Source of the DNA: a virus
Virus record (IMG/VR): IMGVR_UViG_3300018023_000032
Span: 1-24,588 of that record
Strand: one strand, 5' to 3'
DNA: 24,588 nt
Shown here piece after piece: positions 2,195 through 24,586 of this stretch. Each line of letters opens with the position of its first letter. Position 1 is the stretch's first letter. The notes beneath the pieces are model-generated. The model searched no databases. It was not told the DNA's origin and was given only the letters and a program-made list of their open reading frames with translations. The position numbers and the translations under genes were made by a program.

Positions 2195-3028
2195 TTACAT
2201 AAATGCTATAACCTTTACGGTGATATTGTAGCCCGTCGAGTTTACCGCGTGCTGAATCACTCCATTGCTGTCGGTCACGCAAACTAAGTACCCGTAAGTG
2301 TTCGCGGCATTCGGATTGAGAACAGCTGCTCCCATCGAAGCACCCGCCGCGCCATTATGTGCATTGCCTGCTCCACCATATCCTTTGGGTTTAACTATAT
2401 AATATGTGCCGGAAGATGCACATAAAACTTCAAGGTAAACAAAAGCAACTTTTTTTCCGACGACGCTTGATAAATCGAGGTCCTGGAAAGTATAAACTCC
2501 AGACAAATGACCATTGAAAACAACCGTCCCGCTCCCGCTTGTTGTGGGAGTCGCGCCCGCCGGACCTGTTGCGCCTGTTGCGCCCGTTGCCCCTGTTGCG
2601 CCCGTCGGACCCTGTGGCCCTTGTGTCCCTCTGTCGCCCGTATCGCCCTTTGCCCCCGGAATGCCCGATTGCGCGAATAACTTCCAGTAGTCGGCAGCGG
2701 TTGTGGGGTCTTGGTTCAAGCTGCCCTGTAACGCGACGTATATCTGGCTGTCGCTTCCCATTGCCAACGCGCCTGTAAGATATGTTGTAGAGGGACACCA
2801 CGCGAGAATACCCAATTGCTCAAGCTGTGCGAGTAAAGCGGAAATCTGCCGCAGGTATTCGTTGAAATCTTCAGACGTGACTATCTCATTAAATCGCCAG
2901 CCCGCGAGTATCCCGGGCGCATCAAGTGCATCGTTGCAATATGTCACCCCGGCAATTGGCGGGTTAGGGATAACGGTCTCGCCGGTCCTCGCCCATATTT
3001 CGAGAAGATGAATTGTCCTGTTATCCAT
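2195..3028 (-). CDS. collagen-like tail fibre protein
   Basis: This 277-aa protein has three parts. Residues 1-120 form an attachment-type domain with a helical EDFNEYLRQISALLAQLEQL segment followed by CPSTTYLTGALAMGSDSQIY, a pattern seen at the N-terminus of phage fibre proteins encoded just after baseplate genes. Residues 122-160 are 13 uninterrupted Gly-X-Y triplets, including four GAT in a row, which predict a collagen-like triple helix. Residues 161-277 form a beta-rich C-terminal head with a Gly/Asn/Ala-rich loop (GYGGAGNAHNGAAGASMGAA), probably the trimer tip that touches the host. The ribosome binding site is AAAGGGG. It follows the DUF2612 wedge gene, the usual place for a receptor-binding fibre. 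There is no signal peptide, unlike the other two appendage genes here. Confidence 0.85.
   Translation of the reverse strand: MDNRTIHLLEIWARTGETVIPNPPIAGVTYCNDALDAPGILAGWRFNEIVTSEDFNEYLRQISALLAQLEQLGILAWCPSTTYLTGALAMGSDSQIYVALQGSLNQDPTTAADYWKLFAQSGIPGAKGDTGDRGTQGPQGPTGATGATGATGATGPAGATPTTSGSGTVVFNGHLSGVYTFQDLDLSSVVGKKVAFVYLEVLCASSGTYYIVKPKGYGGAGNAHNGAAGASMGAAVLNPNAANTYGYLVCVTDSNGVIQHAVNSTGYNITVKVIAFM
2549..2665 (-). repeat. Gly-X-Y codon repeat of the collagen-like fibre
   Basis: Thirteen 9-base Gly-X-Y units lie in tandem. The left part is four near-identical units encoding Gly-Ala-Thr (about 2567-2602). Such short near-perfect units can expand or contract by replication slippage in 9-base steps without breaking the frame, changing shaft length. 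Confidence 0.85.
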
Positions 3029-5016: not shown

Positions 5017-5574
5017 TTATTGGCTCCCTGAGACGGTTATCTGTTGCGGCTGCGAAGAAAAAATTGTCGTAAATGTCGCCGACATCGAAACCGTCCTTGC
5101 GCCTCTGTCGAAATTGATTGATATATCACTGATTTGGCTTACACCATAAACATTGCTCATTTCATTTCGCACGGCCAGCTTTATAGCGTTTACGCTTTTG
5201 CCGCCGAGAAGTCCAGCAAACCACGCCATACCCAGCGTCGTATTTAAGAACCATTCGCCGAGCAGCCGTTTCAGGTGAAGCTTAACACGCTGAGCCACTT
5301 CTACCGTATCGCTTACCTGCGCTATATGCCCGTCGATTATTACGAGGTCATTTATTACATTATCGAAGGCGAAATCGAGTTTACTATTTTGATTTACGGG
5401 GATAATCGAAGTCGATGAAATATCCGGCGTAAGGGCCGGGCCAGCCAATCCGTTAAGTATGCCCTGCAAGCGGGCTATTTCCGCCAGAAGTGCCGAGTTG
5501 TCACCACCGCCTCCGGTCTCCGGCATAACGCCGAACGTCGCCTGTCTTTTAATATCTTTCCCGGTCGTGGTCAT
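5017..5574 (-). CDS. gp25/gpW-like baseplate wedge protein
   Basis: Residues 70-185 match the gp25-like wedge family: VINDLVIIDGHIAQVSDTVE, then AQRVKLHLKRLLGEWFLNTT, then GMAWFAGLLGG. The LGEWFLNTTLG stretch is the usual signature of the family in phages of this kind. These proteins resemble a sheath C-terminal domain and nucleate sheath polymerisation on the baseplate. The N-terminal 70 residues are an extra, Gly-containing extension (MPETGGGGDNSALLAEIARL) with a short helix. The ATG overlaps the stop of the fibre gene (TAATG), and one base separates its own stop from the J gene start. Confidence 0.88.
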   Translation of the reverse strand: MTTTGKDIKRQATFGVMPETGGGGDNSALLAEIARLQGILNGLAGPALTPDISSTSIIPVNQNSKLDFAFDNVINDLVIIDGHIAQVSDTVEVAQRVKLHLKRLLGEWFLNTTLGMAWFAGLLGGKSVNAIKLAVRNEMSNVYGVSQISDISINFDRGARTVSMSATFTTIFSSQPQQITVSGSQ

Positions 5575-6860
5575 TATTTTACATCCATCAGTTTATATGG
5601 CGACGTTTCGCTTGAGGTTAATTCCGCGATTACGGTAGCCCGGTCATCGGCATCGAGAATTTGCACTACGCCGGGGGAGCCGGGTTTATCCTGCCACGTT
5701 CCAGCCATAACAGCCGCTTGAACCTTTAATGCCTTTGCGAGCGTCCATGTCCCGCCTGCTGTTACGCCCGTCGAATTCAATATCGCCGTTGCTATTCCGT
5801 TGGTGTCCCCGGTGATTGTTATGCCGCTGAAATTGAATGCCGCAAGAGCCAAGCCGCAGGCCGCCTGGACGCTGTTGTAATCGATACTGCTCCCGTTGTG
5901 ATTGCCGAGATAAACATTAACATCGCTAATCTGTCGCTGAATAGCTGCCTGATTCGCCAAAATGGTCGGCGTATTGTGGTCATTATTGTCGCGGGGTATC
6001 AAAGCCATTGCCGTCTGGGTTGCGGTATTTATGTCCCTTGCCTGCTGACCGTTGGCATCTATTTTGCCGTTTGTGTTTATGAAGTTGGCCTCGAAAGCCG
6101 TCCTGTTTGCCGCAACCGTTCCTATGACATTGCAGGCGTCGGTAACAGTGGAAGGATTAGCCGGTATCAGGTTCGTCTTATTCATTATCGTTGTCTGATT
6201 ACCAGCAATAACGGCATTCACATCTGATAATTTGATACTGACATTGGTATTCAGGGTAGCAACGTTGGTGTTGATTGTATTGATATTTAACCCATTATTG
6301 TCTATGGAGTTTTTCAAAGTGGTATTTACATCGGAAAGTTTCAAATTAACGTTTGAGTTTATGGTATTTATATTGAGGCCGTTGTTGTCGATAGATGATT
6401 TAAGTGTCGTCTGGTTTGCCACAATAATTGTCGGCGTAGCGGTCGGAGTAAAATTCGGCTCTGTAACCGTCAACGTCGTCGAACCATATTTCCAGTTCCA
6501 GTAAGTCGAGGAGACAACGCTTATGTCCCCCTTCCAGACGGGAACGCCATTTATATCGTTTACATCAATCCTGAGCCAGCCGAGAGTTCCAACATCGGTC
6601 GCACCAGTAAGCGGGCAGTTATAAACGCCTTGACCAAGATACGCGAGTCCGGCGGTATTTGCTTTCGCCGCTTGACTTGTTCCGCCATATTTTGTTAGCT
6701 TGACATTCGTATAGGGTATCGTCAGAGACGGCAGGTAGTTGGCGTTTGTATCAACGAAAGGCCCGATAGGGATATTAGCATCAACATTTTGCGGTATTTC
6801 TATGGCCTTTGCCGCCGTTATCATCAACAGGATTATCAGGAATATAATAAGCCGTTTCAT
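5574..6860 (-). CDS. exported coiled-coil tail fibre/appendage protein
   Basis: A Sec-type signal peptide is plain: MKRLIIFLIILLMITAAKA with an Ala-x-Ala site after residue 19. Residues 30-130 form a beta domain (IGPFVDTNANYLPSLTIPYT, later GVYNCPLTGATDVGTLGWLR) of a kind common in phage appendage proteins from environmental phages. Residues 150-330 are Asn/Thr/Ile-rich coiled coil with two tandem copies of a 29-36 residue unit (151-179 and 180-215), ending in the I(R/S)DVNVYLG pattern of fibre shafts. The C-terminal domain (QILDADDRATVIAELTSSET) also recalls fibre tips. The ribosome binding site is GAGG, 7-nt spacing. A cleavable signal peptide is unusual for a virion fibre, which assembles in the cytoplasm. 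Either the product is exported to the cell surface, or the hydrophobic stretch has another use. Appendage-type protein: likely; virion location: not shown. Confidence 0.75.
   Translation of the reverse strand: MKRLIIFLIILLMITAAKAIEIPQNVDANIPIGPFVDTNANYLPSLTIPYTNVKLTKYGGTSQAAKANTAGLAYLGQGVYNCPLTGATDVGTLGWLRIDVNDINGVPVWKGDISVVSSTYWNWKYGSTTLTVTEPNFTPTATPTIIVANQTTLKSSIDNNGLNINTINSNVNLKLSDVNTTLKNSIDNNGLNINTINTNVATLNTNVSIKLSDVNAVIAGNQTTIMNKTNLIPANPSTVTDACNVIGTVAANRTAFEANFINTNGKIDANGQQARDINTATQTAMALIPRDNNDHNTPTILANQAAIQRQISDVNVYLGNHNGSSIDYNSVQAACGLALAAFNFSGITITGDTNGIATAILNSTGVTAGGTWTLAKALKVQAAVMAGTWQDKPGSPGVVQILDADDRATVIAELTSSETSPYKLMDVK
6216..6410 (-). repeat. tandem intragenic repeat in the fibre coiled coil
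   Basis: Two adjacent units encode TTLKSSIDNNGLNINTINSN... and TTLKNSIDNNGLNINTINTN..., each ending KLSDVN. The second unit carries seven extra residues (about ATLNTNV). The DNA copies have diverged in third positions, so this is an old duplication rather than a recent slip. Confidence 0.75.
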
Positions 6861-6877: not shown

Positions 6878-8551
6878 TCAAATTATTTTATTTGTCGTGG
6901 TTGTCGTTCCGTTCGTTACTGCGTCTGTCTGGCAAGCCCCGATATTCATATTGTAAGTGCCGGTCAGTCCCGCATTGACGCTGTTCGGTTCAAGGCCGTT
7001 ATTGAAGCAGGGGCTATTAGTGGCGAGGGTGTAATCTTTGCCTTTGACAATGATGTAAGTGATGCTCGTTAAGGCGTTGCTTCCGGGCGCAGTTGCAAGA
7101 GTTATACTATTATTACTGTTTACCGCAGAAATTGCGTACACGCCCGTTGTTCCTGTCCCCGAACCTATGGCTACGATATTAACCGTATCGGTTGTTGCCA
7201 CGCCGGAAAACGGATTTGATGCAGCCCTTAATTCAAGATTAGAAGGAGAAGTGGCACTAACGTTACCATCCGCCCCAGTTACTATCGTCCCGTTCAGTTT
7301 CGGGTCTGAGGTTATATCGGTTGTTCCCTTAGAGCAGTAAGATGATACTATATCTGTATATCCTGAAATTGTGGAATTGTTCCAGCAGTTACAGGCAAGC
7401 AGTATATTCGTATTCGCCGATGGAAGGGAAAGGCCAATATAATTATCAGCAAAAATGTTATTTATAACACAATTTCCTACAGATGCAGTGGAATAATATA
7501 AAGCAGTTCCGTTGCCCCTGAATGTATTGCCGTAAATCCTGCTGAGCGTATCGATTGTGTGGGTTGTGGTTAGGTTGACGCCCGTTTTACAGGTGTCTAT
7601 GATACTGCTTATTACAGTTGCATAATCAATATCATACCCCGTAAAATATATTCCTGTCGCGCTGTCATATACATAGCAGCCAATAACGGTTTGCGGCGAT
7701 TTAATTGCATATCCATTAAGACAACTTGCTTGACAGTTATAGTAGTTGCCCAATGCGGTAGCAAACGCCGACGCCGTAGTGGTAGGATTAACAATAGAAC
7801 AATTTACCATTGTCGTCGTTGCGGCTGCCGGAACTACTCCGGTTTGGATGTTACTTGTCGAACCGGTAAATGACAGATTTTCTAATTGCCAGTAAGCAGG
7901 AAAAGTCCAATAACCATTTGTCGCGCCCGTAAAAGCGGGCCTGTCTGAACCGTAGGGAATCGTTGACCTGCTTGTAACATATCCGACGACCTTGATTATA
8001 CTGGCAAGTGTTCCAACATTGGTTGTAGTTGTTCCACTTGCCTGAGAATACGCGCCACTTTTGACATAGACAGTATTACCAGCAACGGGAGATGAAGTTG
8101 CTGTATTTAATAAAGTGGCATCAAGATTATTATATGCACCGCCAAGACAGGCAGTCCCGTTTACTTTTCCTGCCGTTCCGCAAGTCCTATCCAGCGTCGC
8201 CTCATTATTTCCATCAACAGCAATAATTTCATAAAAGCCGGTTGTGAAATTAGTGCCAGCGGTAATCTGCATAAAATTACCGACCATCGCAGTCGTTAAA
8301 TTATTAGTGGCAAACACTTTTGAAGAAGAAGAAGAATCAATACTCAGGGCGGTTGTATGAAATTGATTAGCATCTTGTTGAGAATAATCCGTGCCAACGC
8401 TTGGACAACAAGGGTCGAAGCCACCACCGTTTGCAGAACTTGCCCCGCCAGTACCATTAGACGGTCTTATCTCCCAAACAACACCAGCAGGGAAAGCCCC
8501 CCACACCGGCGAGCAGAAGATGAACAAAAGTAAAAGTAAAAGCTTTCGCAT
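6878..8551 (-). CDS. exported right-handed beta-helix (pectate-lyase-like) protein
   Basis: The 557-aa product starts with a strong Sec signal peptide (MRKLLLLLLFIFCSPVWG, cleavage before AFPAG). Next comes VWEIRPSNGTGGASSANGGG plus GTDYSQQDANQFHTTA, an opening typical of environmental phage and planctomycete beta-helix proteins. Residues about 160-400 contain short repeating strand units (NTVYVKSGAYSQ, LENLSFTG, IGCYVYDSATGIYFTG, RIYGNTFRGNGTALYYS, NCVINNIFADNYIGLSLP) that predict a right-handed parallel beta-helix of PbH1 type. The mature chain has 15 cysteines, which suits an oxidising compartment and supports real export. No catalytic triad is obvious. It sits between spike and wedge genes, so it may be a tailspike with polysaccharide-binding or degrading activity, or a secreted protein made during infection. 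Confidence 0.72.
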   Translation of the reverse strand: MRKLLLLLLFIFCSPVWGAFPAGVVWEIRPSNGTGGASSANGGGFDPCCPSVGTDYSQQDANQFHTTALSIDSSSSSKVFATNNLTTAMVGNFMQITAGTNFTTGFYEIIAVDGNNEATLDRTCGTAGKVNGTACLGGAYNNLDATLLNTATSSPVAGNTVYVKSGAYSQASGTTTTNVGTLASIIKVVGYVTSRSTIPYGSDRPAFTGATNGYWTFPAYWQLENLSFTGSTSNIQTGVVPAAATTTMVNCSIVNPTTTASAFATALGNYYNCQASCLNGYAIKSPQTVIGCYVYDSATGIYFTGYDIDYATVISSIIDTCKTGVNLTTTHTIDTLSRIYGNTFRGNGTALYYSTASVGNCVINNIFADNYIGLSLPSANTNILLACNCWNNSTISGYTDIVSSYCSKGTTDITSDPKLNGTIVTGADGNVSATSPSNLELRAASNPFSGVATTDTVNIVAIGSGTGTTGVYAISAVNSNNSITLATAPGSNALTSITYIIVKGKDYTLATNSPCFNNGLEPNSVNAGLTGTYNMNIGACQTDAVTNGTTTTTNKII

Positions 8552-11501: not shown

Positions 11502-13214
11502 TTACATACCATTCGGAGAAAAAGGCAGCTGAGACGGGTCCGACCAGTTAGGTAATCCCTTTTTCGCCATATCGTAGACCTGATACGCATCGGCAGCGGC
11601 AGCGTTTATATTGACATTGGTTTCGCTTCTTCGATTATCATTCACGACGGTCGATGTTTTATTCGAGACAGTGGAGGATGGGTTAGCTGGGACAATCGGC
11701 TTGCCTCGCACGGTCGGGCCAAGATTGGCTTTTATAGTATTCGCAAAATCGGCAACGGCATTAGGGTCAATCATAGCATAAATATCATTGAAGTCGTAAT
11801 TCTTGCTTTTGTCTTTTTCGCCTTCGCTGGCTTCTCGATTCCAATTATTTATAAGCGTCTGCCTTAAAGTGTATTTACGGTCTTTTCTGCCGCCCACTTC
11901 ATCTGCATATTGGGCTTCTGCTTTTGCGTAGGCCAGTATTTCGTCGCCGATACTAACATCAACCCCTTTTCGTCTGCGGTCTTTTGGATTGAGAAATTCG
12001 CGGGTTTGCTGGGGCATATTGGCGACATTTCCCACGAAGTTGGTTGTGGCAGCACCCAATCTAACGGCGAGAGCAGGAAATGCCCGAAGCAGGTCAATCA
12101 ATACCTGCACAGAATCCACTGCATCTGCTGCCGCAAGAGCAATGCCTCTGAAGAATTCGTCTATGACTCTGTGTTTATTCGCCGTTATGCCCATTATTGT
12201 ATCGAGGGCATCGGCAACCACCAAAATAGCAGCATAAACGAGAAGCATTTTAGCTCTATTGTAAGCCCACAAAACGCCCATAGCCGCCAGTCCCCATAAG
12301 GCCAGATTGATGAATTGCTCGGTTTTATCTTTCAAATTGCCGGTCAGCCCCAGCGCGTCTCCTATCGCCTTGACATACGGCTGCATCGATTGCCAGACCT
12401 TGCCCAGTTGATGATAAAACTTATCAAAGCCCGATACGATACCGAGTATAACCTGCTCTACTTTAAGAGCAATCCAGTTCTTATTGAGCGTTACCCAATC
12501 GCGGAATTTTGTAAGCAGCTCAGTCAATTTGGGCATAAGGCCAAGCCCTATTTTGTTTGATATGCCGCCCCAGACGCCCTCAATATCTCGCCAAACCTTC
12601 AGGAATTTAACAGCGCCCTCCTGCGCCCCTGTTGGTATTATCAGTCCCAAGCTCTCTGCCTGCTGCTGTAACGCCTTTATTCCTGCGCGGCCTTCGCGGA
12701 GAAGATTGATTGTGTCAACAGATATTCCGAGCCGGCTGCCCCATTGCAAAGCTTCAGTCATACTCATCTTGCCGAGCCGGGCAGACAAATCCTCCAGAAC
12801 ATCCGCTACATTGCGAATACCGCCGCCAAACTTATAAGCATTTATTCCCAATTGAGCAAGGGCGACATTGAATTCGCCCGGTACAGGGGAGGTCATCGAT
12901 TTGGTGAGGGACAACAAATCAGAGTTTAGATTCTTTGAACTGTAACCAAGCTGCTCTACGGCGTAATCCATCGCCTGAATTTTCTCTGAGGATACGCCGG
13001 TATTCTTCGCCAGCTTGAGCAAGTCCTCGGCGTTGGTCGCTATGCTCTTTATCCAGAATCCGAAGCCCGTAGAAAATGCCGCGATTGCAATAGTCGCCTT
13101 CTTGCCGACGGACTCGATTTTGTCAAGCCCCTCCTGCATCTTGTGCATTACGGCGATGGTCGTTGGGTCCACCTCGACGCCAAGGACGGTTATAAGCTCT
13201 GAAATCACAGCCAT
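11502..13214 (-). CDS. tail tape measure protein
   Basis: The 570-aa product has tape measure features. The N-terminus is helical (VMHKMQEGLDKIESVGKKAT) with a hydrophobic stretch. Long helices with Phe/Trp spacing follow, then two central membrane-type segments (about residues 301-317 and 322-340: FINLALWGLAAMGVLWAY and MLLVYAAILVVADAL) and a polar C-terminus. The KNTGVSSEKIQAMDYAVEQL segment is commonly found in tape measure N-terminal domains of this phage type. It follows the tail chaperone genes and precedes the Dit gene, the standard position. At about 1.5 angstrom per residue it would set a short tail of very roughly 85 nm. Its ATG overlaps the stop of the HNH gene (TAATG). Confidence 0.9.
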   Translation of the reverse strand: MAVISELITVLGVEVDPTTIAVMHKMQEGLDKIESVGKKATIAIAAFSTGFGFWIKSIATNAEDLLKLAKNTGVSSEKIQAMDYAVEQLGYSSKNLNSDLLSLTKSMTSPVPGEFNVALAQLGINAYKFGGGIRNVADVLEDLSARLGKMSMTEALQWGSRLGISVDTINLLREGRAGIKALQQQAESLGLIIPTGAQEGAVKFLKVWRDIEGVWGGISNKIGLGLMPKLTELLTKFRDWVTLNKNWIALKVEQVILGIVSGFDKFYHQLGKVWQSMQPYVKAIGDALGLTGNLKDKTEQFINLALWGLAAMGVLWAYNRAKMLLVYAAILVVADALDTIMGITANKHRVIDEFFRGIALAAADAVDSVQVLIDLLRAFPALAVRLGAATTNFVGNVANMPQQTREFLNPKDRRRKGVDVSIGDEILAYAKAEAQYADEVGGRKDRKYTLRQTLINNWNREASEGEKDKSKNYDFNDIYAMIDPNAVADFANTIKANLGPTVRGKPIVPANPSSTVSNKTSTVVNDNRRSETNVNINAAAADAYQVYDMAKKGLPNWSDPSQLPFSPNGM

Positions 13215-13957
13215 TATTTACCACCCTTTTTTAATTTATGACAATCAAAGCAAAGTGTTTGCCCGTTGTTAATATTCCAAAGCTCTTCGCAGGCCAACGC
13301 CTGCTCAAAAGAAAGTATTTTATATTCACTGAAGATAGAGGCGAAGCTTTTGGGTGCGTGATGGGCTTGTAGGTCGCCTCCGCGTTGTCCGCAATCCTGA
13401 CAAGTATAATTATCCCGCGTGAAAATATCAGAGCGCCATTGGCGATAACGAAAATCATTTCTAACTTTCGTCATCACCGGCGTTATGCCGCCCTTCCATT
13501 GTGGATTTTTTTCTTTAGCAAATGTGCCTTCCTTGATACGGGTGTCCGACATCTTTTTTTTAGCCGCTTCTGAATGTTTGTGGTATCTATTCTTAAAGCC
13601 CATTATTCGGGCCTGTTCTGTCAATTGTTTTTTTCGCTTCTCACTCAATACGAGCTTTTTCCCTTTATGTTTTTCGCTCATATTTTTAAGGTATTCGGGG
13701 GTTGCGTGCGTGCGACGCATTTTGAGTTTAGTTTCTTCGGTATGAGGTATGCCGAGACGGAGTTTATTGCCTTTCATTCTCGCGCTTTGCTCAGGGCATT
13801 TTTCGCCAAGGCGTTTCCCTTTTTGGGCTTCGCTCATATTGCGCAGATGTTCAGGGGAAAACTTCTTACCCTTCGACCAAGACGTGTGCCCTTTATTTGC
13901 TTCGCTCTGCTTCCGGCGAATTTCGGCAGTTCTTACATATATTCCAGGGCGTCCCAT
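13214..13957 (-). CDS. HNH homing endonuclease with NUMOD3 motifs
   Basis: Residues 1-150 are basic and contain several NUMOD3-type DNA-binding repeats: HLRNMSEAQKGKRLG, HTEETKLKMRRTHA, YLKNMSEKHKGKKL, HSEAAKKKMSDTRI. Residues 170-247 form an HNH nuclease domain: Cys186-x2-Cys189, His199-His200, Asn230/Asn231 and Cys236-x2-Cys239-His240, giving the His-Asn-His core and a structural zinc site. This is the usual make-up of free-standing phage homing endonucleases, which nick or cut alleles lacking the insertion and so spread. It sits between a hidden 57-codon gene and the tape measure gene, sharing a TAATG with the latter, so the insertion is neat and polarity-neutral. No intron ends are visible around it. 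Confidence 0.9.
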   Translation of the reverse strand: MGRPGIYVRTAEIRRKQSEANKGHTSWSKGKKFSPEHLRNMSEAQKGKRLGEKCPEQSARMKGNKLRLGIPHTEETKLKMRRTHATPEYLKNMSEKHKGKKLVLSEKRKKQLTEQARIMGFKNRYHKHSEAAKKKMSDTRIKEGTFAKEKNPQWKGGITPVMTKVRNDFRYRQWRSDIFTRDNYTCQDCGQRGGDLQAHHAPKSFASIFSEYKILSFEQALACEELWNINNGQTLCFDCHKLKKGGK

Positions 13958-14827: not shown

Positions 14828-15289
14828 TTAAAGGCCGAGCGCCGCCGCTGCCGCTAATGCAGCACTTGCAACGTCAAGATTATTTTCCTGCAAATCGCCG
14901 CTTACGAACGTCCACTCCCGGGCGCCCATTTTCTTGTCGCCGGTAGTAAGCTCGCCGGGCCGCGATATCAAAGCACCGGTAAGCACATGGAGAGCGCCTA
15001 CGCCGCTTCGCACCGTAACCATAAAGCCGTCGTCGGAGGCCATGCCCTGCTCCTGTGCAATGCGCAAAGTCGACAAGTAGCTATGCGAGGTCGAATTCTC
15101 GCGGAGTCGCAGTTTGATTGTGCCGCCCTGATTCGTTGCCTGATTCGGGGAGCCGCCGTCCAGCCCCTCGGTCATTTCAACCTGACCGCCGACCGGCGTA
15201 ACAATAATACAGCCGCCGTCACTGAATCCCTGGATGCGAATACCGGCAACGTAAACGGACGCTTGTGATTGATTATATACTCGTCTCAT
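14828..15289 (-). CDS. tail tube protein
   Basis: A 153-aa beta-rich protein with the DUF3277-like tube pattern: YVAGIRIQGFSDGGCIIVTP, then QVEMTEGLDGGSPNQATNQG and TIKLRLRENSTSHSYLSTLR, ending in REWTFVSGDLQENN and an Ala-rich helix. Stacked hexamers of this protein form the inner tube through which DNA passes. The gene lies between the sheath and the tail chaperone genes, the standard place. AGGAG precedes the ATG by ten bases, a rather long spacing. Confidence 0.85.
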   Translation of the reverse strand: MRRVYNQSQASVYVAGIRIQGFSDGGCIIVTPVGGQVEMTEGLDGGSPNQATNQGGTIKLRLRENSTSHSYLSTLRIAQEQGMASDDGFMVTVRSGVGALHVLTGALISRPGELTTGDKKMGAREWTFVSGDLQENNLDVASAALAAAAALGL

Positions 15290-15307: not shown

Positions 15308-16801
15308 TCAAACAATCGCATTGACGTTTATGTTGACGAAGTGAATAGCGTCTGAGAGATACCCGATTATCTGGACAGGCGGGGCTATCCTTGCCGCTCT
15401 GTCTGCCGCTGATACGCCGTAAATCGGCATCGGGATAACATCGAACGCTTTGAGGATTGTAAAGCCGCTCTGCGCGGTATCATCCGCAACCTGCCTGTCG
15501 GCAAAGGTGCCGTTGCGAATATAATTACTGCCGATAAGTTGGCACGCCTGACAGATAAGCGTTTGCCCGGCCACCGTGTAAGGCACTTTGCCATTGCGGA
15601 GGAACACATTGAAAACTTCCACCTTCAATTCGTTGATGAAGTTATGCAGATTCACCAGCATATCCGTAAACCAGGTATCCGCGGATTGCACGCCTTCACG
15701 ATAAACGTGAGCATTCGCACCCTGAAGGACAAGCGTATTTATCCTTCGGCCCGCGAGCAGAGCTAACTGCGTCTCGGTCAGCGGCGTAGGTGTGCAGCCG
15801 GAGAGATCTTTGAATTTGCCGGTAATTGTGGAATCGGCCAGTGAGTAATCGACCGACAGGAACATTGCCAGGGCGCTCACGTCGGGGTATTCCTGGGCAT
15901 TGTTTGAATAGACGACGCCGACGAATCGATTGTCGGAGTTGTTGGCATAGTAACCGATATTCGTCTCGTCAGCACCACTATAAGCGGTAACGTCATTTGA
16001 AGCGAGTATACTTATCGCCGGCTGATTATCGCTGTGGCCGCCAACCCAATCAGCGAAATCGCTCTGGTCTGATGTGTCGCGGTAATCGAGGTCGATGCAC
16101 CAGCCGTAAATCGGGTATCCGGCGTTTGTGCTTTCCTTCTGGACTTCCGCCGCTTCCACCGCGAGAGCGCCGTGTGTCCAGCCCTGCGATAAGACCGCAC
16201 CTGTCGCAGCGGTCAATCTTGCGACTGCGCTGATATCAGCACCCGCTATTGCCGTCGCGTAATCGATTGTCTCGGTCGCGCCAGTAGCCGAGCCGGTCGA
16301 TATTGTGATACTGCCATCATCATTTGCTACGCAGGTCGCGCCTGCCGGGAAATTCGTACCTGCCGCGATAGCTGCCGCAATCTTTGTCGCGGTATCTAAA
16401 CCTGTGAGAGCGATTGCTGTTATCGCTACGGGCGAGCCAGCGATGGGGATAGTCAATACGCCAGTGCCCTTTGCCTCAATTGCGGTAATGTCTGCGGCAC
16501 TCAAAGGCCCGCTCATTATCGCCCCCGGCTGGTTTGCTGTTGCAACAAGCCCGACGGCTAATCTTTTCGGCCTGCGAACCTGTGCAAAGAACGCCTGCCC
16601 CGCCCACCACTTTGCGGTCCCGGGCGCGTAGTCGGCCTCATATTCCGCCATAGTGAGATAATACTTTACGCGGTTCCACGAGAAAACCGTCGCCGATTTG
16701 AACAGCACGGCCATTAGCGACATATCCGTAGCCAGTAGCGTTTGCGCTACCGACACGCTCACGTTTACGTCTATATCCACTGGTATCCGCTGATTGCTCA
16801 T
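15308..16801 (-). CDS. tail sheath protein from internal start
   Basis: An ATG at 16801, in frame with the long ORF, is preceded by AAAGGA at eight-base spacing. It gives a 497-aa protein that matches the full length expected of a DUF3383 tail sheath. The sheath is needed in six copies per tube ring, so a dedicated start yielding the plain sheath is more plausible than a virion built only from 820-aa subunits. The A of the ATG is followed by TGA in one of the other frames (ATGA), the usual coupling junction between two separate phage genes. I therefore regard this as the main sheath product. Confidence 0.8.
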   Translation of the reverse strand: MSNQRIPVDIDVNVSVSVAQTLLATDMSLMAVLFKSATVFSWNRVKYYLTMAEYEADYAPGTAKWWAGQAFFAQVRRPKRLAVGLVATANQPGAIMSGPLSAADITAIEAKGTGVLTIPIAGSPVAITAIALTGLDTATKIAAAIAAGTNFPAGATCVANDDGSITISTGSATGATETIDYATAIAGADISAVARLTAATGAVLSQGWTHGALAVEAAEVQKESTNAGYPIYGWCIDLDYRDTSDQSDFADWVGGHSDNQPAISILASNDVTAYSGADETNIGYYANNSDNRFVGVVYSNNAQEYPDVSALAMFLSVDYSLADSTITGKFKDLSGCTPTPLTETQLALLAGRRINTLVLQGANAHVYREGVQSADTWFTDMLVNLHNFINELKVEVFNVFLRNGKVPYTVAGQTLICQACQLIGSNYIRNGTFADRQVADDTAQSGFTILKAFDVIPMPIYGVSAADRAARIAPPVQIIGYLSDAIHFVNINVNAIV

Positions 16802-17770
16802 TTGTGGTTTCCTTTCATTTTTTTTCGCCTGAAAATTGGCTTCAAGAGTATAATCGTCATTCATCGTCAAAAACGTTGATGCTGCCAACGGGTCATTCAC
16901 CGGAGCAGTGCCCGTCCAGACATCAAAGTCGTATTCGAGGTCTGCTTCTGCGATGACATTTACCTCTTCACCGTGATTGTAAACGTGCTGCCCCAAAAAG
17001 GGTTCTGAGACGAATCCGCCGAGGGATGATGATACGGTTAGGGTGTAAGTTGTGGGAGCTGGCGTGCCTGAGCTTCCAAAGCCATTCCCGAAAACTCCGG
17101 CTACCCTTGCCGACTGAGTGGCTACGTTACAAGTGCCGTCGTGTCCACCTACCGCCCCGGTATCAGCATAAGTATTACCGGAATTATTCTCATTAAAAGT
17201 CCAGTGATAATCGGGGGCAAGACCAGCCGTGGGGTCTATGGTTGCGGCCTGCAAAGCGGCAATCTGCCCGTCGCTCAGAGCCGACTTCCATATCATCAAT
17301 TCGTCAAGGGCAACATCAGATTGATTAGCTGTGGGTGGATAAGTATTGGCATTTATTAAATGTAAAGACGAATTAGAAGGACGGGGAAGACCTGAATCGC
17401 TTTCAACGTTTGGGCTAACAAGAATGCCGTCAATCCAAATCGAAATCGTTGGGGAGTTACTCTGTAAATTGATGCCCCTTATTTCTATTTCATGCCAGTT
17501 GCCATCGTCTATGATGTTTAAATTAAGTTGCGGTGAGGCTGTATTATACCGGCCTCCAAAGCCATAGGCATTATAGTACAAATCCAAGTATTTTGAACCA
17601 AAGTTGTGTGTCCCAATTTTCCAAAAATAATATGAGCTCGCAACAAACTGATTGTCCATTATGGCCGAGTTGCCTGAAGGTATCGGAGATAAGTATTTTA
17701 TCCGAAACGACCACGTCATATTACTGGCGTCGATATCCTGCCCATTCGGGATTGTAACTATATTCGCCAT
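15308..17770 (-). CDS. LamG + InlB-repeat + tail sheath (DUF3383) fusion protein
   Basis: The full ORF is 820 aa. Residues 1-175 form a laminin-G/concanavalin-like domain (GNWHEIEIRGI, ISIWIDGILV, then DVALDELMIWKSALSDGQIA), with a second LamG-like fragment at 186-231 (DYHWTFNENNSGNTYADTG). Residues 241-316 form a divergent InlB B-repeat (TYTLTVSSSLGGFV ... TMNDDYTLEANFQA). From residue 324 it is a normal DUF3383-type tail sheath: MSNQRIPVDIDVNVSVSVAQ, then YYLTMAEYEADYAPGTAKWW and VRRPKRLAVGL, ending in IHFVNINVNAIV. Sheath proteins of this class start near MSNQRIP; I know of none with this N-terminus. The join falls at an A8 run, and the sheath part has its own ribosome binding site. The gene starts next to the stop of the 73-aa gene (TAG then ATG). 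It may be a real fusion, a recoded gene pair, or two genes joined by a one-base sequencing error. Confidence 0.75.
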   Translation of the reverse strand: MANIVTIPNGQDIDASNMTWSFRIKYLSPIPSGNSAIMDNQFVASSYYFWKIGTHNFGSKYLDLYYNAYGFGGRYNTASPQLNLNIIDDGNWHEIEIRGINLQSNSPTISIWIDGILVSPNVESDSGLPRPSNSSLHLINANTYPPTANQSDVALDELMIWKSALSDGQIAALQAATIDPTAGLAPDYHWTFNENNSGNTYADTGAVGGHDGTCNVATQSARVAGVFGNGFGSSGTPAPTTYTLTVSSSLGGFVSEPFLGQHVYNHGEEVNVIAEADLEYDFDVWTGTAPVNDPLAASTFLTMNDDYTLEANFQAKKNERKPQMSNQRIPVDIDVNVSVSVAQTLLATDMSLMAVLFKSATVFSWNRVKYYLTMAEYEADYAPGTAKWWAGQAFFAQVRRPKRLAVGLVATANQPGAIMSGPLSAADITAIEAKGTGVLTIPIAGSPVAITAIALTGLDTATKIAAAIAAGTNFPAGATCVANDDGSITISTGSATGATETIDYATAIAGADISAVARLTAATGAVLSQGWTHGALAVEAAEVQKESTNAGYPIYGWCIDLDYRDTSDQSDFADWVGGHSDNQPAISILASNDVTAYSGADETNIGYYANNSDNRFVGVVYSNNAQEYPDVSALAMFLSVDYSLADSTITGKFKDLSGCTPTPLTETQLALLAGRRINTLVLQGANAHVYREGVQSADTWFTDMLVNLHNFINELKVEVFNVFLRNGKVPYTVAGQTLICQACQLIGSNYIRNGTFADRQVADDTAQSGFTILKAFDVIPMPIYGVSAADRAARIAPPVQIIGYLSDAIHFVNINVNAIV
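16818..16825 (-). repeat. A8 homopolymer at the LamG-InlB/sheath junction
   Basis: Eight A in a row on the coding strand, between the InlB-type repeat and the sheath start. With eight the frame continues into the sheath. With nine (or a -1 slip) the next codon after the Lys codons is TGA. With seven (or a +1 slip) the frame runs six more codons and stops at the TGA overlapping the sheath ATG. Such runs are prone to polymerase slippage and to sequencing error. Confidence 0.85.
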
Positions 17771-17992
17771 CTATCCGCACCCCATTACCGATTTCGCCCG
17801 GCCAAAAGATGTCCTGTGCCAGCCATTAAGCTCGCCAAAAACATCTTCCAGAACGCCCCGCTGCTTTACGGTCGTATGCTTTTCTCCTGCGAGCAAAACG
17901 TGAAGCCGGTTAATCTCTTGAACGTGCTGAGCTATTTCAGCAAAATGTCCCCGCCTTCGCTCTATTATTGCTTCATCGTTAGGATTGCTCAT
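17771..17992 (-). CDS. hypothetical 73-aa protein upstream of sheath
   Basis: The start is the ATG at 17992 (MSNPNDEAIIERRRGHFAE), fixed by GAGGAG five bases upstream; the longer reading from 18025 overlaps the preceding gene more and has no such site. The product is mostly helical and basic (HVQEINRLHVLLAGEKHTTV, then GVLEDVFGELNGWHRTSFGR), with one Cys near the C-terminus. It overlaps the tail terminator gene by 14 bases and abuts the sheath ORF. I recognise no family; a small tail-assembly or connector factor is possible. Confidence 0.65.
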   Translation of the reverse strand: MSNPNDEAIIERRRGHFAEIAQHVQEINRLHVLLAGEKHTTVKQRGVLEDVFGELNGWHRTSFGRAKSVMGCG

Positions 17993-23715: not shown

Positions 23716-24366
23716 CTACTTAATCGTTTTCAGGAATTGTTCTGCAATCCATTTTGAATATGAGGGTGGTATCGCCTGTTTAATTTCATCTCGTGTCATC
23801 CAGCCGATATCCATAGCGGTTTTCCATTGCGCAATTGTGCCTTTGCTTATCCCTTTATGGTTTGTTCCCCACGACCTCCACCGGCCGGCACCACCAGCAA
23901 TACTAAAATACTTTCCGTCGCCGATTTTGCCTTTATGCTTATCGTGGTGCGGAGACAACATACCCCAAGACAACTCGAAATATCTGTGCCGGAATACTCC
24001 CAGTCCAAACATTGTGCCGCACAACATTATTGGGTTTTGTAGGGGCGCGCCGCCCACATTTTCAATGGCATACGGGATGCCGCTTTCAATGAGCATATCC
24101 CGTGTTACGGCGACTAAATCAGGATACTTTTTGCCATTTTTCCGGTGAATTGCCGATGCAACTGAATACGCCTGACACGGCGGGCTTGCCCAGATAAAAT
24201 CGAATTGCCGGAGATATTTCAGTGTAACCGACAAGGCGTTTGATTGATGAAATTCAAAAGGGTAATGTCGCTGCGGATTAAGGTCTATACCGACAACCTC
24301 AAAGCCCGCGTCTACTACACCGCGACTCGCTCCACCGGCCCCGCAGAATAAATCAAGAGCTTTCAT
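23716..24366 (-). CDS. phage DNA (cytosine-5) methyltransferase, solitary
   Basis: From the ATG at 24366 the 216-aa product carries the C5-methyltransferase motifs: motif I ALDLFCGAGGASRGVVDAGF (cofactor binding), VVGIDLNP, motif IV SPPCQAYS with the catalytic Cys64, motif VI ENVGG, motif VIII FRHRYFE, and a C-terminal IPPSYSKWIAEQFL as motif X. At about 220 residues it is a compact phage type with a very small target-recognition region. No restriction nuclease is nearby, so it probably protects phage DNA from host restriction. Start choice: ATGs at 24390 and 24384 also lie in frame but inside the preceding gene; 24366 follows that gene's stop by one base (TAATATG) and matches the family's N-terminus. 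Confidence 0.92.
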   Translation of the reverse strand: MKALDLFCGAGGASRGVVDAGFEVVGIDLNPQRHYPFEFHQSNALSVTLKYLRQFDFIWASPPCQAYSVASAIHRKNGKKYPDLVAVTRDMLIESGIPYAIENVGGAPLQNPIMLCGTMFGLGVFRHRYFELSWGMLSPHHDKHKGKIGDGKYFSIAGGAGRWRSWGTNHKGISKGTIAQWKTAMDIGWMTRDEIKQAIPPSYSKWIAEQFLKTIK

Positions 24367-24367
24367 A

Positions 24368-24586
24368 TTACGTGAGCAATTCATCAACATTTGGATATTC
24401 GGCCCGGACGATGTCAGCGCACTGATTCAAAACTTTTGCTCTGGCATCAGCAGCAGCATCAGCAGCATCATCAGCAGCAGCAGCATCATAAGCAGCAGCA
24501 TCATAAGCAGCAGCAGCATAAGCAGCAGCAGCAGCAGCATCATAAGCAGCAGCAGCATCATAAGCAGCAGCATCATAAGCAGCAGC
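24368..24586 (-). CDS. Ala-rich repeat protein, C-terminal fragment (Imm-5-like candidate)
   Basis: Only the last 72 residues lie in the window. The visible part is Ala/Tyr/Asp repeats (AAAYDAAAYDAAAAYD and so on), then DARAKVLNQCADIVRAEYPN and VDELLT, then TAA at 24370-24368. Ala-rich YAAY/DAAA repeats ending in an R-x-x-x-L-x-x-CADIVR-x-x-YP tail are a recognisable phage and bacterial type, often annotated as a putative immunity (Imm-5-like) protein; no function is established in phages. The gene runs off the right edge, so its main domain is not seen. It is followed directly by the methyltransferase gene. Confidence 0.6.
   Translation of the reverse strand, partial: AAAYDAAAYDAAAAYDAAAAAAYAAAAYDAAAYDAAAADDAADAAADARAKVLNQCADIVRAEYPNVDELLT

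Follow-up and report, generated by a model that had tools for sequence, protein, structure and literature searches.

In-frame fusion of a LamG-InlB module to a contractile tail sheath in an uncultured phage fragment, and the products its two candidate starts may give

Does a single open reading frame (ORF) of an uncultured phage encode a tail sheath with binding domains at its N-terminus, or does it join a plain sheath to an accessory gene that lies one base away from being separate? The question is raised by a locus in IMG/VR record IMGVR_UViG_3300018023_000032, a 24,588-base phage fragment with no host genome attached (the window, meaning the whole stretch of DNA analyzed here). The original prediction placed at 15308-17770 an ORF that runs from a LamG-like domain through an InlB repeat into a full DUF3383 sheath. 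The frame is open over all 820 codons, on the minus strand (17770→15308), which had been left unstated, and a Pfam search supported the proposed domain order, with LamG falling below threshold. The parts of the ORF are as follows:

15308..17770, minus strand: single 820-codon ORF combining a LamG-like domain, an InlB B-repeat, and a DUF3383 sheath (open frame, Pfam)
17258..17758, minus strand: LamG/ConA-like domain PF13385, residues 5-171 (sub-threshold Pfam match)
16823..17047, minus strand: divergent InlB B-repeat PF18998, residues 242-316 (Pfam; reaches model position 72 of 73)
15308..16801, minus strand: putative plain sheath of 497 aa from an internal ATG at 16801 (Pfam, phrog_205, fold, start signals)

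The C-terminal part matched the PHROGs tail sheath family phrog_205 (E = 1.5e-57), and residues 334-817 matched DUF3383 (PF11863) almost from end to end (model positions 4-492 of 493, 153 bits, E = 1.7e-44, above the Pfam cut-off). In a full-length AF2 model, pLDDT was mostly about 90 across the sheath, and the top PDB match of the predicted sheath fold was the XM1 sheath (7kh1; Foldseek E = 4.5e-27). A profile built from relatives matched the PDB sheaths of XM1 gp6 (7kh1), Pam3, and E217. As judged by sequence and predicted fold, this half is an XM1-type contractile sheath, with about 28% identity at most to its closest relatives. It has the same full-length domain, start position, and top fold match as known DUF3383/phrog_205 sheaths (XM1 gp6, 7kh1; Pam3, 8hdr; E217 gp31, 8env), and the methionine at 16801 aligns with the starting methionine of relatives.

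The surrounding genes are arranged on the minus strand in the order DNA methyltransferase, head protease, major capsid, neck genes, tail terminator, a 72-aa ORF, the fused ORF, tube, chaperone, HNH endonuclease, tape measure, hub, baseplate J, and fibres. Those referred to here are:

23716-24390, minus strand: DNA methyltransferase gene, adjoining the head protease gene at the contig end
17979..18551, minus strand: neck/tail terminator gene (PF23961), which in relatives lies immediately 5' of the sheath
17771..17989, minus strand: 72-aa accessory ORF with no family assigned, between the tail terminator gene and LamG, whose ATG directly follows the TAG of this ORF
14828..15289, minus strand: tail tube protein-like gene (phrog_280), 3' of the sheath
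13214-13957, minus strand: HNH/homing-endonuclease-like gene, between the tail chaperone and tape measure genes
2195-3028, minus strand: collagen-repeat tail fibre gene

The order terminator, sheath, tube is common to relatives and the window. The sheath is thus placed between the terminator/neck and tube genes, but about 1.2 kb is inserted after the terminator. On its sequence, the phage is a divergent XM1/DUF3383-type myophage; its baseplate J protein reaches 34% identity to MW202455 at best. Elsewhere in the window, the HNH/homing-endonuclease-like gene overlaps the start of the tape measure gene by 1 base. Two minus-strand ORFs in the baseplate/fibre region, of 557 aa (6878-8551) and 428 aa (5574-6860), begin with signal-peptide-like N-termini (MRKLLLLLLFIFCSPVWG and MKRLIIFLIILLMITAAKA, respectively), which is odd for virion proteins. 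Neither had a family match, and the 557-aa ORF was also without a match among phage records.

Within the N-terminal part, the InlB B-repeat is clearly above its Pfam cut-off (E = 3.7e-9; 36.9 bits versus 23.6). The LamG match (Laminin_G_3) covers model positions 7-151 of 151, with an E value of 4.8e-6 when searched alone and 1.3e-5 within the fusion, and its 27.2 and 25.8 bits, respectively, lie below the curated cut-off of 27.6; residues 5-171 are therefore best described as a probable, sub-threshold LamG domain. Between the two domains, residues ~183-230 (YHWTFNENN...GGHDGTCN...VAGVFGNGFGSSG; 17080..17224, minus strand) resemble by motif the beginning of a further, truncated LamG domain; they had no profile match. 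Residues 1-322 as a whole had no match in PHROGs. Two structure predictions were dropped as arguments for domain shape: a single-sequence fold of residues 1-322, which was uninformative (pLDDT 32), and the N-terminal part of the full-length AF2 model, which was of low confidence.

Composition sets this module apart from the sheath. Because GC3 is 0.46 in LamG-InlB (0.45 in the LamG part) versus 0.60 in the sheath, we infer that LamG-InlB is an acquired cassette, inserted between the terminator and sheath genes. The HNH and methyltransferase genes have GC3 values similar to that of LamG-InlB. A search for repeats flanking the insertion gave nothing above chance-like pairs. Only 6-7 residues separate the end of the InlB repeat from the sheath methionine, as would be expected for the C-terminus of a once separate gene.

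Which proteins would the present ORF yield? The sequence that had been proposed as a ribosome binding site for the sheath alone is present as described:

16810..16815, minus strand: Shine-Dalgarno (SD)-like AAAGGA (read 16815-16810), with an 8-nt spacer to the ATG at 16801

The predicted SD duplex at this start (-5.6 kcal/mol) is close to the mean for the annotated starts of the window (-5.5), and in its -30/+20 region this start is much more open than internal ATGs are. By consensus and energy measures only, one of 121 internal in-frame ATGs equalled 16801 in both SD and openness. A product from ATG 16801 would begin at the family start, free of the N-terminal domain, to which the 820-codon ORF adds 323 in-frame codons. 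Given the family start position, the typical SD, and the open start region, a plain 497-aa sheath is very probably made. The upstream ATG at 17770, next to the TAG of the 72-aa ORF, is preceded by an SD-like GGGGTG (duplex -8.4), and a product from this start is very probably made as well. The suggestion that one gene gives both plain and decorated sheath has thus gained a credible separate start for the plain form (family position, SD, and open mRNA); the 820-aa form is plausible as read from the DNA.

Whether the upstream product is fused to the sheath depends on the junction, where a feature absent from the original prediction was found:

16818..16825, minus strand: A8 homopolymer at the InlB/sheath junction
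Residues 310-335, across the InlB/sheath junction: QAKKNERKPQMSNQR

With eight A's (16825-16818) the frame continues into the sheath; with 6, 7, 9, or 10 it would meet a stop within 2-8 codons. The last residue of the InlB repeat, 316, is encoded within this run, and there is almost no linker. A single error, polymorphism, or slippage event at the A8 run is accordingly a live rival to a real fusion. On one such reading, the true or majority sequence would have 7 or 9 A's and encode two separate genes, with LamG-InlB (318-323 aa) ending at or just before the sheath ATG. The fusion would then be a one-base sequencing or assembly error or a polymorphism, and LamG-InlB would be either a free accessory protein or one attached to the virion. 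We regard this as possible, if doubtful. It is favored by the dependence of the fusion on an A8 run, of which the coding strand has only two in 24.6 kb (the other lies in the HNH ORF), and by the completeness of the InlB repeat right before the junction. With 7 A's, moreover, the upstream ORF would stop at a TGA that shares bases with the sheath ATG (ATGA). Junctions of this type are seen in ~7% of relatives, but every start of the form ATGA brings with it such a TGA in one of the other frames. Since only ~7% of relatives use ATGA, the overlap was rejected as a proof that LamG-InlB is a gene of its own. In the HNH ORF, the A8 run and both A7 runs are in frame, and no other gene in the contig looks broken; the contig is therefore not visibly prone to homopolymer error. 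Errors at A8 are also uncommon in short-read consensus sequences.

The same run could instead be a site of recoding, in which in-frame reading would give the fusion and transcriptional slippage or a -1 frameshift on A_AAA_AAT would give a nearby stop and unfused LamG-InlB. Stops directly after the A8 run in both other frames are consistent with this, as is the exponential increase of slippage on A runs with run length (PMC5574713). Precedents come from slippage in Thermus thermophilus dnaX (PMC5009743), where a single ORF encodes the long product and the other two frames are closed by stops; the locus recalls this arrangement, but its A8 run is shorter than the A9 of dnaX. Nonetheless, recoding as the explanation of the locus is quite improbable: the run falls short of A9 or longer, one reporter study detected no slippage of Escherichia coli RNA polymerase on poly(A) (PMC6260861), and A_AAA_AAT differs from the strong site A_AAA_AAG.

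To place the fusion among relatives, ~170 DUF3383 sheath loci were gathered from genomes, IMG/VR, and GenBank phages, and a few more from scans seeded with window proteins, giving ~180; the reach of this survey is that of relatives findable by short peptide patterns. Within it, none of the ~180 loci inspected carried an N-terminal sheath domain, in line with the earlier view that this N-terminus is unfamiliar and in agreement with the two-gene reading. In the great majority of surveyed loci, the sheath start is closely preceded by the end of a gene of 60 aa or more, and in relatives the neck gene lies directly next to the sheath. Upstream of the sheath, the open frame was short save in two loci (L078, 273 aa; L094, 139 aa), whose apparent fusions were rejected as out-of-frame, Arg-rich readings of the preceding gene. 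A search of 50,697 phage records with residues 1-322 gave no match (best E about 6), nor was there one in any of the loci fetched, and InlB repeats were found in none of 39 related records. IMG/VR pattern scans using the sheath, the N-terminal module, the capsid, or the 557-aa ORF alone found no relative, and L181, the closest record by baseplate J, gave no sheath match. A first sheath alignment of seven sequences was too diverse for scanning, and PF11863 surveys of bacterial phyla gave ~1% matches, too few to use. No open-access paper that we found combines a tail sheath with LamG. LamG proteins do occur in DUF3383-type phages, in L211 (550-aa ORF) and L212 (346-aa ORF), but in distal tail-fibre-like genes and not in the sheath operon. 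The sheath with an N-terminal fusion is a real, rare architecture, seen in one contig.

Could a fused subunit fit into a sheath? In XM1, the N-terminus of gp6 is a buried handshake strand, which pairs with the C-terminus of a neighbor and adds to the sheet of the ring below (PMC10457771). This disfavors decoration of every subunit. A 323-residue module with hardly any linker would be hard to place on all subunits, and a minority might be tolerated. A fully decorated shaft, in which all subunits are the 820-aa fusion, is highly improbable: the continuity of the ORF is the only point in its favor, and the SD, ATG, and family start kept inside the ORF speak against it together with the XM1 structure. 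The buried strand also bears on the view that a fusion truly present in the DNA is a tolerated accident, with an 820-aa product made at a low level, unincorporated or degraded, and without a role. The strong internal start and the lack of a conserved linker fit this view; nonetheless, both N-terminal domains, LamG and InlB, are intact within an open frame that begins at an SD-like start of its own, and we consider an accident unlikely.

Known systems offer partial parallels. SPP1 builds its tail tube from gp17.1 and gp17.1* at 3:1, and the frameshifted, FN3-bearing subunit is dispensable (PMC8718954). There, plain and decorated forms arise from one gene; SPP1 is the nearest functional precedent for the two products predicted from the fused ORF. 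The likeness, extending to lambda gpV and T5 pb6 (Fraser et al. 2006), lies in an accessory beta-rich module on a repeated tail subunit. In those phages, however, the modules are Ig/FN3, C-terminal, and on non-contractile tail tubes, often added via a frameshift or directly in frame, whereas the window module is LamG/InlB, N-terminal, on a contractile sheath, and bypassed by an internal start. Large-phage multi-domain sheaths (types 2 and 3) carry extra, often Ig-like domains suggested to serve adhesion or stability; these are positioned at a distance from the tube, and the two termini form the conserved core (PMC9230969). The window module, in contrast, precedes the whole core. The sheath could be a mixture of plain and N-terminally LamG-InlB-bearing subunits, made from one ORF with two in-frame starts and placing host- or surface-binding domains along the moving shaft; we hold this fuller version to be rather unlikely.

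Our tentative preference, at somewhat less than an even chance, is for an accessory LamG-InlB cassette upstream of a mostly plain sheath, with at most a minor fused form. A cassette of the 72-aa ORF and an adhesin-like LamG-InlB ORF would have been inserted between the tail-terminator and sheath genes and would now be in frame with the sheath. Initiation at ATG 16801 would supply the bulk of plain 497-aa sheath, ribosomes starting at 17770 would make some 820-aa LamG-InlB-sheath, and A8 slippage may release short unfused LamG-InlB besides. Against this reading, no surveyed relative has the fusion to suggest selection for it. A minor fused subunit in the tail is plausible from the sequence; if assembled, it would be in the minority among the subunits and would display a carbohydrate-binding-like module on the shaft, comparable in form to the Ig/FN3 minority subunits of siphophages. 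Adhesion along the shaft by LamG-InlB is speculation.

If the fused subunit is not incorporated, the locus would be a clean case of an accessory gene one base away from fusing with a structural gene. If it is incorporated, this would be, as far as could be found, the first contractile sheath with an N-terminal binding module. The handshake end of the sheath would then tolerate a fusion of ~320 residues, which would bear on shaft adhesion and on the use of sheaths as display scaffolds.
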